Under the pieces are notes generated by a model, which was not told the origin of the DNA, made no database searches, and worked only from the letters and a program-made list of their open reading frames with translations. The translations under genes were made by a program, and so were the position numbers. Positions 1,463 through 21,250 of a stretch of DNA of 23,617 nucleotides are shown piece after piece. The stretch covers positions 1 to 23,617 of IMG/VR virus record IMGVR_UViG_3300013109_000337; one strand, given 5' to 3'. Within the stretch, counting starts at the first letter, position 1; each line of letters opens with the position of its first letter. The DNA is from a virus.

Positions 1463-2317
1463 TTACTTGTTTAAGCGGCTGATTACTTTGGAAGTAATTT
1501 CAGCAACTAAAGCGTCAACTGCTGTAGTTTGGGATTCATTGTAGGCTTTTTCACCCTTCTTGTCTCCCCATGTTCCGTCGTCATCATCGTGCTTAAGCTC
1601 ACTACCCTTTTTGGTGGTGTAGTCTTTTTCGTGAGGATGAGTTTTGGAGTCGTCGCCTGCAGAGGCGCCGGTGTCTTTAGCACCAGTCTCTTGCATCAAA
1701 TCTTCTTCTGCGTCTTCCATGTCGTCAGCAGCGTCCATCATATCGTCGCCTGCGTCTGCCATGTCGTCTACAGCTGCTTCTTCTTCGTCAGAAGTAACAG
1801 TTGTTTCGATGCCAGCTTGAGTCAACAAGTCAGCCAAGTCAGCCAAAATTGCTTCAGCTCTAGCAGCCAAGTCGTCCCCACCTTCTTCAGCGGCTTCTTC
1901 TTCGGCTCCCAAATCTACCTCTGCGTCCATAGCGACTTCTGCGCCCATATCGGCAGCGGCTTCTTCGTCTTCGAGCTCGTCCTCTTGGATGTGCGCCAAG
2001 CCTTCGGCTTTGACTTCTTCCTCGACAGTCTCGTCTTCATGAATACGATCAGCAGTCATGCGGCCTTTGCCAACATCATGCCCTTCGTTTCCGGTTCGAG
2101 CGGCGGCGCCGCCTTCTTCGATGGCTTCTTCGCCTTCGGTTACAGCTTCGGCTTCTTCGTTAGTTGCCTCGGCTGCTTCTTCAACAGTTTCGGTTTCTTC
2201 GTTGATTTCTTCTTCCTCGTTCACTTGAGTTTCCAAGAAGGATTCTGAAAGTGGAGCGAGGTTAGCTAATCCCATGAAACGACGAACTGTTGATTCGTTT
2301 AAAAGTTTCTTACTCAT
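1463..2317 (-). CDS. Highly acidic Glu/Ala/Asp-rich protein, candidate capsid scaffold or core protein
   Basis: A 284-residue protein dominated by Glu, Asp and Ala, with runs such as EEEAAEEGGDD. The short N-terminal segment MSKKLLNESTVRRFMGLAN looks structured, and the C-terminal segment near VDALVAEITSKVISRLNK looks like an amphipathic helix. Strong bias of this kind occurs in T4-like prohead core proteins. Tripeptides LSE and FLE near residues 23-29 match the (L/I)xE form cut by T4-type prohead proteases, but such short matches occur easily by chance. The gene sits alone between two terminator-like hairpins. GAGGAG lies nine bases before the ATG at 2317. I cannot name a family; an internal capsid or DNA-mimicking role is inferred. 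The reverse strand shows a long open frame only because of the repeated GAA/GCT codons. Confidence 0.8.
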   Translation of the reverse strand: MSKKLLNESTVRRFMGLANLAPLSESFLETQVNEEEEINEETETVEEAAEATNEEAEAVTEGEEAIEEGGAAARTGNEGHDVGKGRMTADRIHEDETVEEEVKAEGLAHIQEDELEDEEAAADMGAEVAMDAEVDLGAEEEAAEEGGDDLAARAEAILADLADLLTQAGIETTVTSDEEEAAVDDMADAGDDMMDAADDMEDAEEDLMQETGAKDTGASAGDDSKTHPHEKDYTTKKGSELKHDDDDGTWGDKKGEKAYNESQTTAVDALVAEITSKVISRLNK

Positions 2318-2390
2318 AGTACTATTCTCCTCTTGATTGTTTTTTTAAATCGATTTTTTCAAGATATACCCTGCAAAGTGCAGAATAACT

Positions 2391-2417
2391 CTTATAATTA
2401 GTGTTGTTATTTGTAAA
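2391..2417 (-). promoter_or_regulatory. Possible promoter upstream of the acidic gene
   Basis: TTTACA (2417-2412) and TATAAG (2396-2391) lie 15 bases apart on the minus strand, which is short for sigma70. The -35-like box overlaps the T-tract of the preceding terminator, the same arrangement as at 1401-1448. A phage-modified or phage sigma could use a different spacing. A small stem CTGCA-aag-TGCAG follows at 2371-2383. Weak evidence. Confidence 0.3.
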
Positions 2418-2448
2418 AACCCCTTTTATTTGCCAGAAACGGGTTTTT
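2415..2448 (-). terminator. Terminator-like hairpin overlapping a stop codon
   Basis: Arms AAAAACCC (2415-2422) and GGGTTTTT (2441-2448) can pair. Read on the minus strand the hairpin ends GGGGTTTTT, a terminator-like U-tract. The loop contains the TAA stop codon (2428-2426) of the sigma-like gene, so ribosomes finishing that gene would cover the upstream arm. Confidence 0.55.
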
Positions 2449-2719
2449 GGATTTTCTTTTTCAGCTTCTGAACTGCTGCTTTCTCGATTTGACAAACACG
2501 CACAAAACTGATACGCAAGCGTTCTCCCACTTCCCTGAGTGTTAGTCCTCCCTCGTTTTTATCGATGGCGACAAAAGAGCAGTTCAAGTCATCTTCGTAG
2601 TCAATCCAATACCGACACTCTTTATTGGGGCACGAAACATCATTTTTCTTGCAAAGAGTGGTGCACTCTCTCTCCACCGACGGGGCATCAGTGAAGATGG
2701 TACTCAAAATATCAGACAT
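2426..2719 (-). CDS. Small Cys-rich protein with sigma70 region 4-like HTH
   Basis: About 97 residues from the ATG at 2719. This start is chosen because GGGGGTG lies at good distance upstream, and because it gives an ATGTCTGA overlap with the preceding gene. The C-terminal part LTLREVGERLRISFVRVCQI (about 59-78) followed by EKAAVQKL matches the region 4 helix-turn-helix of RpoD-family sigma factors, which binds the -35 element. The N-terminal half has cysteines at about 19, 23, 30, 35 and 47, including CPNKECRYWIDYEDDLNC, which suggests metal binding. Region 2 is absent, so it is not a complete sigma factor. It resembles the short region 4-only proteins seen in phages and some bacteria. It lies directly upstream of the apparent late genes, so a late transcription regulator is a reasonable guess. 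Confidence 0.75.
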   Translation of the reverse strand: MSDILSTIFTDAPSVERECTTLCKKNDVSCPNKECRYWIDYEDDLNCSFVAIDKNEGGLTLREVGERLRISFVRVCQIEKAAVQKLKKKIQKPVSGK

Positions 2720-3062
2720 CTTCATCACCCCCGATCAAGTCGAAAATGTTTTCGATATCTTCTGGTGAGAGCCCAAAGCGTTTATCAATCTCATCTGCTT
2801 TTTCTCTCTCCTTCTTAATCATTTTTCGAGAACGCTTCGAGTCTATCTCTTTTCTCTCCTTGTAGTTCTCAATGAATGCAGTCATATTTTTTTCGTCGGC
2901 GATGAAGCCGTCAACAACAGCTCGAAAAAATTCCGTCTTTGTCATCTTCTCATATTCAAGCTTCATTATAAAATTGACGTACACGGTGTCCGTGCTATCA
3001 TAATAAAGAGAAGGGTAGACTCTGCGGTTAAGCTGTCCGTACTCTTCTATCTTATCAACCAT
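2712..3062 (-). CDS. Small protein with ribbon-helix-helix-like core
   Basis: About 116 residues from the ATG at 3062. A longer frame is open to 3095, but AGAGAGG lies six bases before 3062 and that start makes a compact ATGGTTGA overlap with the upstream gene. Residues 29-54 (VNFIMKL then TKTEFFRAVVDGFI) have the pattern of a strand followed by a helix starting at a Thr/Ser-rich turn, as in ribbon-helix-helix DNA-binding proteins. The rest is lysine/glutamate-rich helix ending in an acidic tail (GLSPEDIENIFDLIGGDEDV). The family call is inference from pattern only. It lies between the zinc-ribbon and the sigma-like genes, overlapping both by eight bases, so the three are probably made together. 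Confidence 0.7.
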   Translation of the reverse strand: MVDKIEEYGQLNRRVYPSLYYDSTDTVYVNFIMKLEYEKMTKTEFFRAVVDGFIADEKNMTAFIENYKERKEIDSKRSRKMIKKEREKADEIDKRFGLSPEDIENIFDLIGGDEDV

Positions 3063-3324
3063 CAGACGCCTCTCTTTCTCTGAGCATCTTGTCAAAGTCT
3101 CTCACAATTGTCTGAGCCTTTGTCCAGCAGTCCGGACAATAAAGGCGCACATCATCTTCCCTGACGACGACACTCCAGCTCATCACCTGCTCTCTGTCTT
3201 GTCTGTCAAAGGGCTCTTCGCAAGCAAGGCACTCCTCTGGAATCCTGTCGAACAGCCCCATCTTCTGCTTCAAATCTTTCTTGATTTGTTTTTGCTTTTT
3301 CTTGTCCTTGATTTTGCGAACCAT
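3055..3324 (-). CDS. Small zinc-ribbon protein
   Basis: About 89 residues from the ATG at 3324, which shares its A with the TGA of the Dam gene (TGATG). The frame is open to 3375 but that would overlap the Dam gene by 52 bases without need. The N-terminal 20 residues are very basic (MVRKIKDKKKQKQIKKDLKQ). Two CxxC pairs, C32-x2-C35 (CLAC) and C63-x2-C66 (CPDC), are 27 residues apart and fit a zinc ribbon. A basic arm plus zinc ribbon points to nucleic acid or RNA polymerase binding, though no specific family is recognised. It heads the three-gene block of small putative regulators. Confidence 0.75.
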   Translation of the reverse strand: MVRKIKDKKKQKQIKKDLKQKMGLFDRIPEECLACEEPFDRQDREQVMSWSVVVREDDVRLYCPDCWTKAQTIVRDFDKMLREREASDG

Positions 3325-20379: not shown

Positions 20380-20408
20380 ATTGTACCACGGATCAGAAAC
20401 GCTGTCAA
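20380..20408 (-). promoter_or_regulatory. Strong sigma70 promoter for the SSB gene
   Basis: TTGACA (20408-20403), 17 bases, TACAAT (20385-20380) on the minus strand; one mismatch from consensus. Expected start near 20373, leader about 55 bases. The stop codon TGA (20407-20405) of the upstream gene is embedded in the -35 box, exactly as at the dnaE promoter. Confidence 0.85.
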
Positions 20409-21250
20409 GCACTTTCTTCCTGTCCCTGAATCACAGCCGAAGACTGGATACAAAAGACGTGTGGCTCTTCATAGGTTGTGGAATACACCCTATAGGAAGT
20501 TCGTTGTTGTCCTTCACGCTGAGAATCTATTAAATCCTTCAATTTCGTGAGGAGTTTGTTGTCATTTCTTAATTCATCTTCATTAATTCCGCAATAATAC
20601 ATGCGTTCTTTGATTTCCTCTAAGTCAAAGAATTTCTTCTCTTTTGCCTCGTCTAAAGAAATCATGCTAATTGTCATGATGCGAGACCAGTTGACTGCAT
20701 CGGAGTCAACACTCAAGACTGGCTCTGAATGTTCGAAGTAGTTGATGAGGTTTAGGGAAGAGACAATGTATTGGTAGAGGGTTTCCTTATATCCGATAAT
20801 CGGGACATCTCCCATAGCCTCTTCGACTTTGGGGATGTTAAAGAGAAGGATTTTGGAAATGGCTCCAGAACGTGCATACTCCTGCAGAACATTAAAGACT
20901 ACTTTCTCACTCTTCTTGGTTTCCTCGTTGAGAGCTGACATGTCCGGCTGGATATAAACCACCGTTGTTGACCACGGGCGTGTGTGTTCCAGAACCCGCA
21001 AAGAGGCAAGTGCTGTTTGTTCGCCACCATTGACGAGAAGAATGCTTCTCCCTGTCAAGTCTTTAAAGAAGTGCTTCATTGCGGGGCAATTGGCTTCATA
21101 TTTTTCGGGAGTCTTTTCTTTCTTAAGTCCCCGCGATCGTTTGGTTTTCGGCAAACCAATTCCTATTTTATAGATTTCATAAGTGTTGTGTTTGGCAAAC
21201 TCATCTGCCAAATCGCAGCCCATTTCGCCGAGTCCAATAATGTTTATCAT
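20405..21250 (-). CDS. Putative divergent FtsZ/tubulin-like protein
   Basis: A 281-residue protein without a clear family signature, but its layout follows FtsZ. NIIGLGEMGCDLADEF (3-18) corresponds to IKVIGVGGGGxNAV at the FtsZ N-terminus. ILLVNGGEQTALASLRVLEH (70-89) lies where the GTP-binding GGGTGTGAAP loop is. TTVVYIQPDMSALNEETKKS (95-114) matches the segment AVVTRPFxFEGxxR. KILLFNIPKVEEAM (133-146) matches LIVIPNDRLLE, and GYKETLYQYIVSSLNLINYF (153-172) matches the following amphipathic helix. VDSDAVNWSRIM (181-192) could stand for the T7 loop. The GGGTGTG tubulin signature is degenerate, so GTP use is doubtful. GGGAG lies five bases before the ATG. It sits between the family A polymerase and SSB under its own promoter. 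An alternative is an unrelated Rossmann-type protein. Confidence 0.45.
   Translation of the reverse strand: MINIIGLGEMGCDLADEFAKHNTYEIYKIGIGLPKTKRSRGLKKEKTPEKYEANCPAMKHFFKDLTGRSILLVNGGEQTALASLRVLEHTRPWSTTVVYIQPDMSALNEETKKSEKVVFNVLQEYARSGAISKILLFNIPKVEEAMGDVPIIGYKETLYQYIVSSLNLINYFEHSEPVLSVDSDAVNWSRIMTISMISLDEAKEKKFFDLEEIKERMYYCGINEDELRNDNKLLTKLKDLIDSQREGQQRTSYRVYSTTYEEPHVFCIQSSAVIQGQEESA

Follow-up and report, generated by a model that had tools for sequence, protein, structure and literature searches.

Late transcription in T4 is the textbook case in which a phage rebuilds the RNA polymerase of its host with split sigma parts, and the locus described here raises the question of whether a comparable arrangement, made of other proteins, exists outside T4. 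The stretch of DNA that was analysed (the window, positions 1-23,617) is one viral record of 23,617 bases, whose minus strand encodes a T4-style set of replication genes. Three small genes follow each other on that strand: one for a basic, zinc-ribbon-like protein of 89 amino acids with a CX2C...CX2C pattern (3055..3324), one for a ribbon-helix-helix (RHH)-like protein of 116 amino acids (2712..3062), and one for a sigma region 4-like protein of 97 amino acids, in which an N-terminal Cys cluster (CX3CX6CX4C...NC) is followed by a helix-turn-helix (HTH) (2426..2719). As read from the sequence, the zinc-ribbon and RHH genes overlap by 8 nt (ATGGTTGA, 3055-3062, minus strand), and the RHH and sigma-4 genes overlap by 8 nt as well (ATGTCTGA, 2712-2719, minus strand). 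The genes and both overlaps lie exactly where a sequence-only reading of this DNA had put them. That reading suggested that the three genes may be a single transcription-switching module, located just before the apparent late region, and that the sigma-4-like and zinc-ribbon proteins could act on host RNA polymerase in the manner of the T4 late factors. Which of these genes belong together, and what they are likely to do, is the subject of the present analysis.

Gene order and coupling in relatives

Relatives were collected from viral contigs in two ways. Searches with single proteins (one query per trio protein) gave 13, 35 and 48 loci, and a scan with a sigma-4 alignment gave 502 relatives, 80 of whose loci were read. 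In every one of these the RHH-like gene stands 5′ of the sigma-4-like gene, directly so except in one locus (L191, about 0.7 kb), and the gene for a highly acidic protein of 284 amino acids, which is the conserved next gene (1463..2317 on the minus strand of the window), is found downstream in 77 of the 80 sigma-4-anchored loci, the remaining three loci ending near there. Since the 80 loci were picked by the sigma-4 protein, it is the presence of the RHH and acidic neighbours that carries information here; the same gene order is found in loci obtained independently with the RHH and zinc-ribbon queries. Among 98 distinct RHH/sigma-4 pairs (from loci of shared ancestry, cleared of duplicates by sequence alone, so that their counts are not counts of independent events), 94 overlap by 4 or 8 nt (4 nt in 82 pairs, 8 nt in 12), with the start codon taken nearest the upstream stop, which slightly favours overlap, and with starts that sit just before the conserved Cys cluster. 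The background, measured over all neighbouring gene pairs of six related genomes, is ~10-19% overlapping by 4 or 8 nt, and the overlap frequency of the pair is far above chance.

While the RHH/sigma-4 pair stays together in relatives, the zinc-ribbon-like gene is usually separated from it. Specifically, it lies 5′ of the pair in 71 of the 80 sigma-4-anchored loci, usually in a non-adjacent position, it is not a neighbour of the RHH gene in most relatives, and in three loci (L139, L168 and L198) the flank yielded no copy of it. Typically it is a gene for an IMP dehydrogenase-like protein that intervenes: such a gene stands between the zinc-ribbon and RHH genes in 7/7 fully read loci, some with extra genes (L076:4982-6001, which matches Pfam PF00478 at E=2e-103, with equivalents in L010, L027, L063, L181, L203 and L048). 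The three genes are contiguous in the window and its nearest relatives because the IMP dehydrogenase-like gene is absent at that place, and the trio looks like the result of this absence. That all three genes, including the one for the zinc-ribbon protein, form one switching module is very improbable, as their contiguity and overlaps in the window and near relatives, together with the frequent 5′ position of the zinc-ribbon gene, have to be weighed against the gene or genes that intervene in most relatives and against the three loci just named. The zinc-ribbon protein is a conserved upstream neighbour that probably does not belong to the core unit. The real unit is the RHH/sigma-4 pair, with the RHH gene first, together with a late promoter candidate (described below), and not the trio; this conservation supports the broader idea that a regulator unit sits where the early and late genes meet.

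The encoded proteins and their possible action on RNA polymerase

Of the three identities proposed at the outset, the sigma region 4-like one is confirmed by profile searches. The window protein matches Pfam Sigma70_r4 (PF04545) at E=1.1e-8 over residues 56-88 (34.9 bits, for a curated cut-off of 24.1), 38/38 aligned relatives match the same family at E<=0.001 (best 1.9e-12), and the profile matches in the PDB are to sigma region 4 (2p7v, E=1.1e-5). Each match concerns the HTH half; in the window protein it spans only profile positions 18-50, and the beta-flap-contacting part is therefore unrecognisable by sequence. The family differs from PF04545 in that its members are single-domain proteins in which the N-terminal Cys cluster replaces the first part of region 4. 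Invariant within the family are C19, C30, C35, N46, C47, R67, R74, Q77 and K85, with C23 nearly so, and the Cys cluster suggests a metal site before the HTH. In the AlphaFold2 model (mean pLDDT 84.7) helices 61-68 and 72-91 form the HTH, and a Foldseek search with this model returned weak matches only, several of them to sigma region 4 and other HTH proteins. A direct profile link between the sigma-4-like and gp55-like proteins was sought, and none was found. Cultured phage records contained no relatives of any trio protein nor of the broader family members, bacterial genomes gave only one partial match of 29 residues to a consensus query, and no PADLOC defence family was matched.

The RHH-like and zinc-ribbon-like proteins had no family match above the cut-off in library searches, and their names are putative. 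For the zinc-ribbon-like protein, four cysteines (C32, C35, C63 and C66) are invariant in 33 relatives. For the RHH-like protein, the sequence pattern agrees with the name, and so do two confident helices (25-37 and 42-54) of the AlphaFold2 model (mean pLDDT 76.2), which follow an extended segment and sit where the RHH fold has them; the monomer model shows no strand and is compatible with RHH, but its top Foldseek match, the RHH antitoxin RelB, is non-significant (E=5.9). The C-terminal DIENIFDI/L motif of this family contains an invariant IFD. A clamp-binding role for the motif, an idea suggested by T4 motifs, was dropped because no clamp gene was found.

The explanation that we prefer, with a probability of roughly 0.45, is that the RHH/sigma-4 pair is a functional counterpart of T4 dsbA-33 and works at the late switch by acting on the RNA polymerase of the host. 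The two genes would be the last of the early operon, directly before the late promoter. The sigma-4-like protein would most likely join the host RNA polymerase at the site of sigma region 4 (the beta flap) and, together with a separate gp55-like factor, would favour late promoters as T4 gp33 does, and the RHH-like protein would probably take the part of T4 DsbA, as a partner that binds DNA or as a regulator of the sigma-4-like protein. The binding to RNA polymerase, the partnership with the gp55-like factor and the timing are the steps that we infer.

The main rival, a serious though somewhat unlikely possibility, is that the sigma-4-like protein is an ordinary sequence-specific repressor or activator with a borrowed sigma-4 HTH, which never sits on RNA polymerase and which, with the RHH-like protein, controls the operon that encodes it or the late promoter next to it. 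Indeed, HTHs of the sigma-4 type occur in non-sigma regulators, some members of the family weakly match phage transcriptional-regulator families, the Cys cluster stands in for the N-terminal part of region 4, and the gene always lies beside a promoter (the candidate late box); yet the clear family match of each member is to sigma region 4 and to no repressor family. It is decidedly unlikely that the protein is instead a host-takeover factor, which would sit on the beta flap, displace region 4 of the host sigma factor and silence the promoters of the host and of the early phage genes, while having no positive effect at late promoters. Such a factor could well resemble region 4 without region 2 and have its gene last in the early operon, and the early genes do carry TTGACA/TATAAT-like promoters, but the conserved HTH and the invariant R67, R74 and Q77 suggest contact with DNA, for which a pure competitor would have no need.

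The candidate late promoter and a lineage without the sigma-4-like gene

The proposed position before the late region holds across a broad phage group, in which the sigma-4-like gene directly precedes a late-type promoter candidate. Of 83 distinct loci, 82 have this box, ACTA[T/C/A]TTA, between the sigma-4-like and acidic genes, where shuffling predicts 4.3; in the window, the candidate (ACTAATTAT, 2394..2402, minus strand) lies 84 nt upstream of the acidic gene. The box is also found upstream of long structural-type genes in six relatives (G001-G006), the label ‘late’ for the genes behind it being taken from size, order and recognisable sequence. Intergenic CTA[CT]TTA is enriched and strand-biased in two related genomes of ~190 kb (forward/reverse 44/5 and 42/6), the bias recurring in four more, and the corresponding counts for all five genomes with a sigma-4-like gene are 44/5, 42/6, 44/8, 49/14 and 33/5. 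The box is a good late-promoter candidate of this phage group, and the conserved overlap of the pair, taken with this candidate, suggests an undescribed early-to-late switch that resembles the one of T4 and is built from different parts. Two side observations concern the genes behind the box: the acidic gene is tandemly duplicated in G006 (L048:8387-9735), and in G005 and G006 many of the proteins begin with a sequence like MKLTKSxLKQIIKEEL, which may be a sorting signal.

Around the box, further elements can be recognised. A weak element ~20 bases upstream of it was found by expectation maximisation (log-likelihood 65, versus ~26 in three control windows). At the position of this weak −35-like element, GGGGTTTTT (2415..2423, minus strand) is invariant in nine close relatives, and it doubles as an arm of a possible early-operon terminator, a stem-loop at 2415..2448 on the minus strand. 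The terminator that the sequence-only reading had placed after the trio is plausible but not strong (z=-2.45 over 42 nt, z=-0.32 over 91 nt), and its stem is largely, not fully, retained in nine relatives. Just 3′ of the late box lies a 5′-leader hairpin (CTGCA-CTT-TGCAG, 2371..2383, minus strand) with compensatory changes from CTGC/GCAG to CCAC/GTGG among nine relatives. The stretch beyond the acidic gene is not purely late-type, since a sigma-70-type promoter match (TTTACA-17-TATAAT, 11/12) lies at 1420-1448 of the window, before the gene at 974-1384. Elsewhere in the window (20405-21250), a protein of 281 amino acids has a glycine-rich N-terminal GLGEMG stretch and no family match above the cut-off.

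A distant relative of a T4 late factor is encoded in these phages. The window is a fragment without a gp55-like gene, and such a gene (phrog_234) is present in 6/6 large relative genomes as a distant match (E 5e-9 to 8e-6), far from the sigma-4-like gene in the genomes that have both. Compared with T4 gp55, the gp55-like protein has a greater length, and its conserved C-terminal stretch, judged by eye, could be a DNA-binding domain of its own. Flavobacterium phage immuto has the gp55-like protein in common with this group (30% identity), and no match to the trio was found in three stretches covering about 148 of its 160 kb. As a separate observation, one relative contains an additional sigma factor ORF (G003:C1:106174-106848; 339 aa) with regions 2 and 4.

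The genes of the trio had also been expected not to be lost separately, but the sigma-4-like gene alone is missing in one lineage (L030, L032 and L036), where the late box and then the acidic gene come after the RHH gene, with no gene between. This lineage includes G004, probably complete because of its 99-nt terminal repeat (with copies differing at one base), in which no sigma-4 match was found in six frames, and two more contigs without the gene at its usual place. G004 retains the late box, with the weakest CTA[CT]TTA bias of the six genomes (38/22), and the weak upstream element (p=3e-4). The sigma-4-like protein is thus not needed for keeping this type of promoter, unless it has been replaced, and the loss of the gene with retention of the box argues against a strict need for a sigma-4-like subunit; it fits the accessory role that an ordinary DNA-binding regulator would have. 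That the sigma-4-like protein is the sole determinant of the −35-like element was rejected in view of G004, where the element persists although the gene is gone. A more elaborate scheme, which we regard as unlikely, supposes a late transcription system of an abundant uncultivated phage group that works independently of a clamp: a split sigma, composed of the gp55-like factor and the zinc-bearing sigma-4 protein, would read a two-part promoter (a weak G-rich/TTT element and the ACTATTTA box) with the coupled RHH-like protein as a partner, one lineage having since passed the sigma-4 role to another protein.

Comparison with T4 and with cellular split sigma factors

The preferred reading, a functional counterpart of dsbA-33, draws on what has been described for T4. 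There, gp33 occupies the binding place of sigma region 4, and gp55 and gp33 together have been called a split sigma (PMC2988020). T4 dsbA, the gene for a small DNA-binding protein, has a conserved overlap with gene 33, which can also be seen in the T4 sequence record; what purpose it serves, and why T4 relatives retain it, has yet to be explained (PMC2988020). The large uncultivated group of T4-like phages that emerges from the sigma-4 scan has the gene arrangement of T4 with unrelated proteins. Since the same arrangement comes with a candidate promoter, and since one lineage has lost the gene naturally and can serve for comparison, it becomes testable outside T4 what a coupled sigma-4-position protein does; the late box, for its part, offers a means of recognising late genes in genomes of uncultivated phages.

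The likeness to T4 has three parts: (i) a small protein for the sigma-4 position exists beside a separate factor of the gp55 family, (ii) the upstream gene that overlaps it codes for a small, here putative, DNA-binding protein, and (iii) there is a short late-promoter box, here a candidate. The parts themselves differ. No sequence relation of the sigma-4-like and RHH-like proteins to gp33 and DsbA was found, a true sigma-4 HTH with a Cys cluster is found in place of gp33, and the gp55-like protein, as judged by eye, is without the clamp-binding tail of the T4 type. The box is of the ACTATTTA type with a weak upstream element, whereas that of T4 is TATAAATA, which has no consistent forward bias in the six genomes (forward/reverse 8/7, 6/10, 14/7, 8/14, 6/23 and 2/10). 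At the profile level, no match was found to the gp33 co-activator (PF16805; 0/6 genomes at E<=10), the gp45 sliding clamp (phrog_223; 0/6), the bacterial beta clamp (PF00712; 0/5) or T4 DsbA (PF11126; 0/5 at E<=10). Matches to T4 clamp-loader profiles in the large genomes were weak or fell in long ORFs, and none was taken for gp44. The suggestion that these proteins act as T4 late factors do is favoured by the gp55-like factor of the six large genomes, but a literal T4 mechanism is unlikely, because homologues of gp33, DsbA and the sliding clamp were not found. With a gp55 homologue present and the other components unmatched, the arrangement is T4-like in plan and not in parts.

Cellular split sigma factors provide a second comparison. 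They share with the system proposed here the distribution of sigma-4 and sigma-2 functions over separate proteins, and they differ from it in that the genes of the two partners lie together, whereas in these phages the gp55-like gene and the sigma-4-like gene lie far apart.
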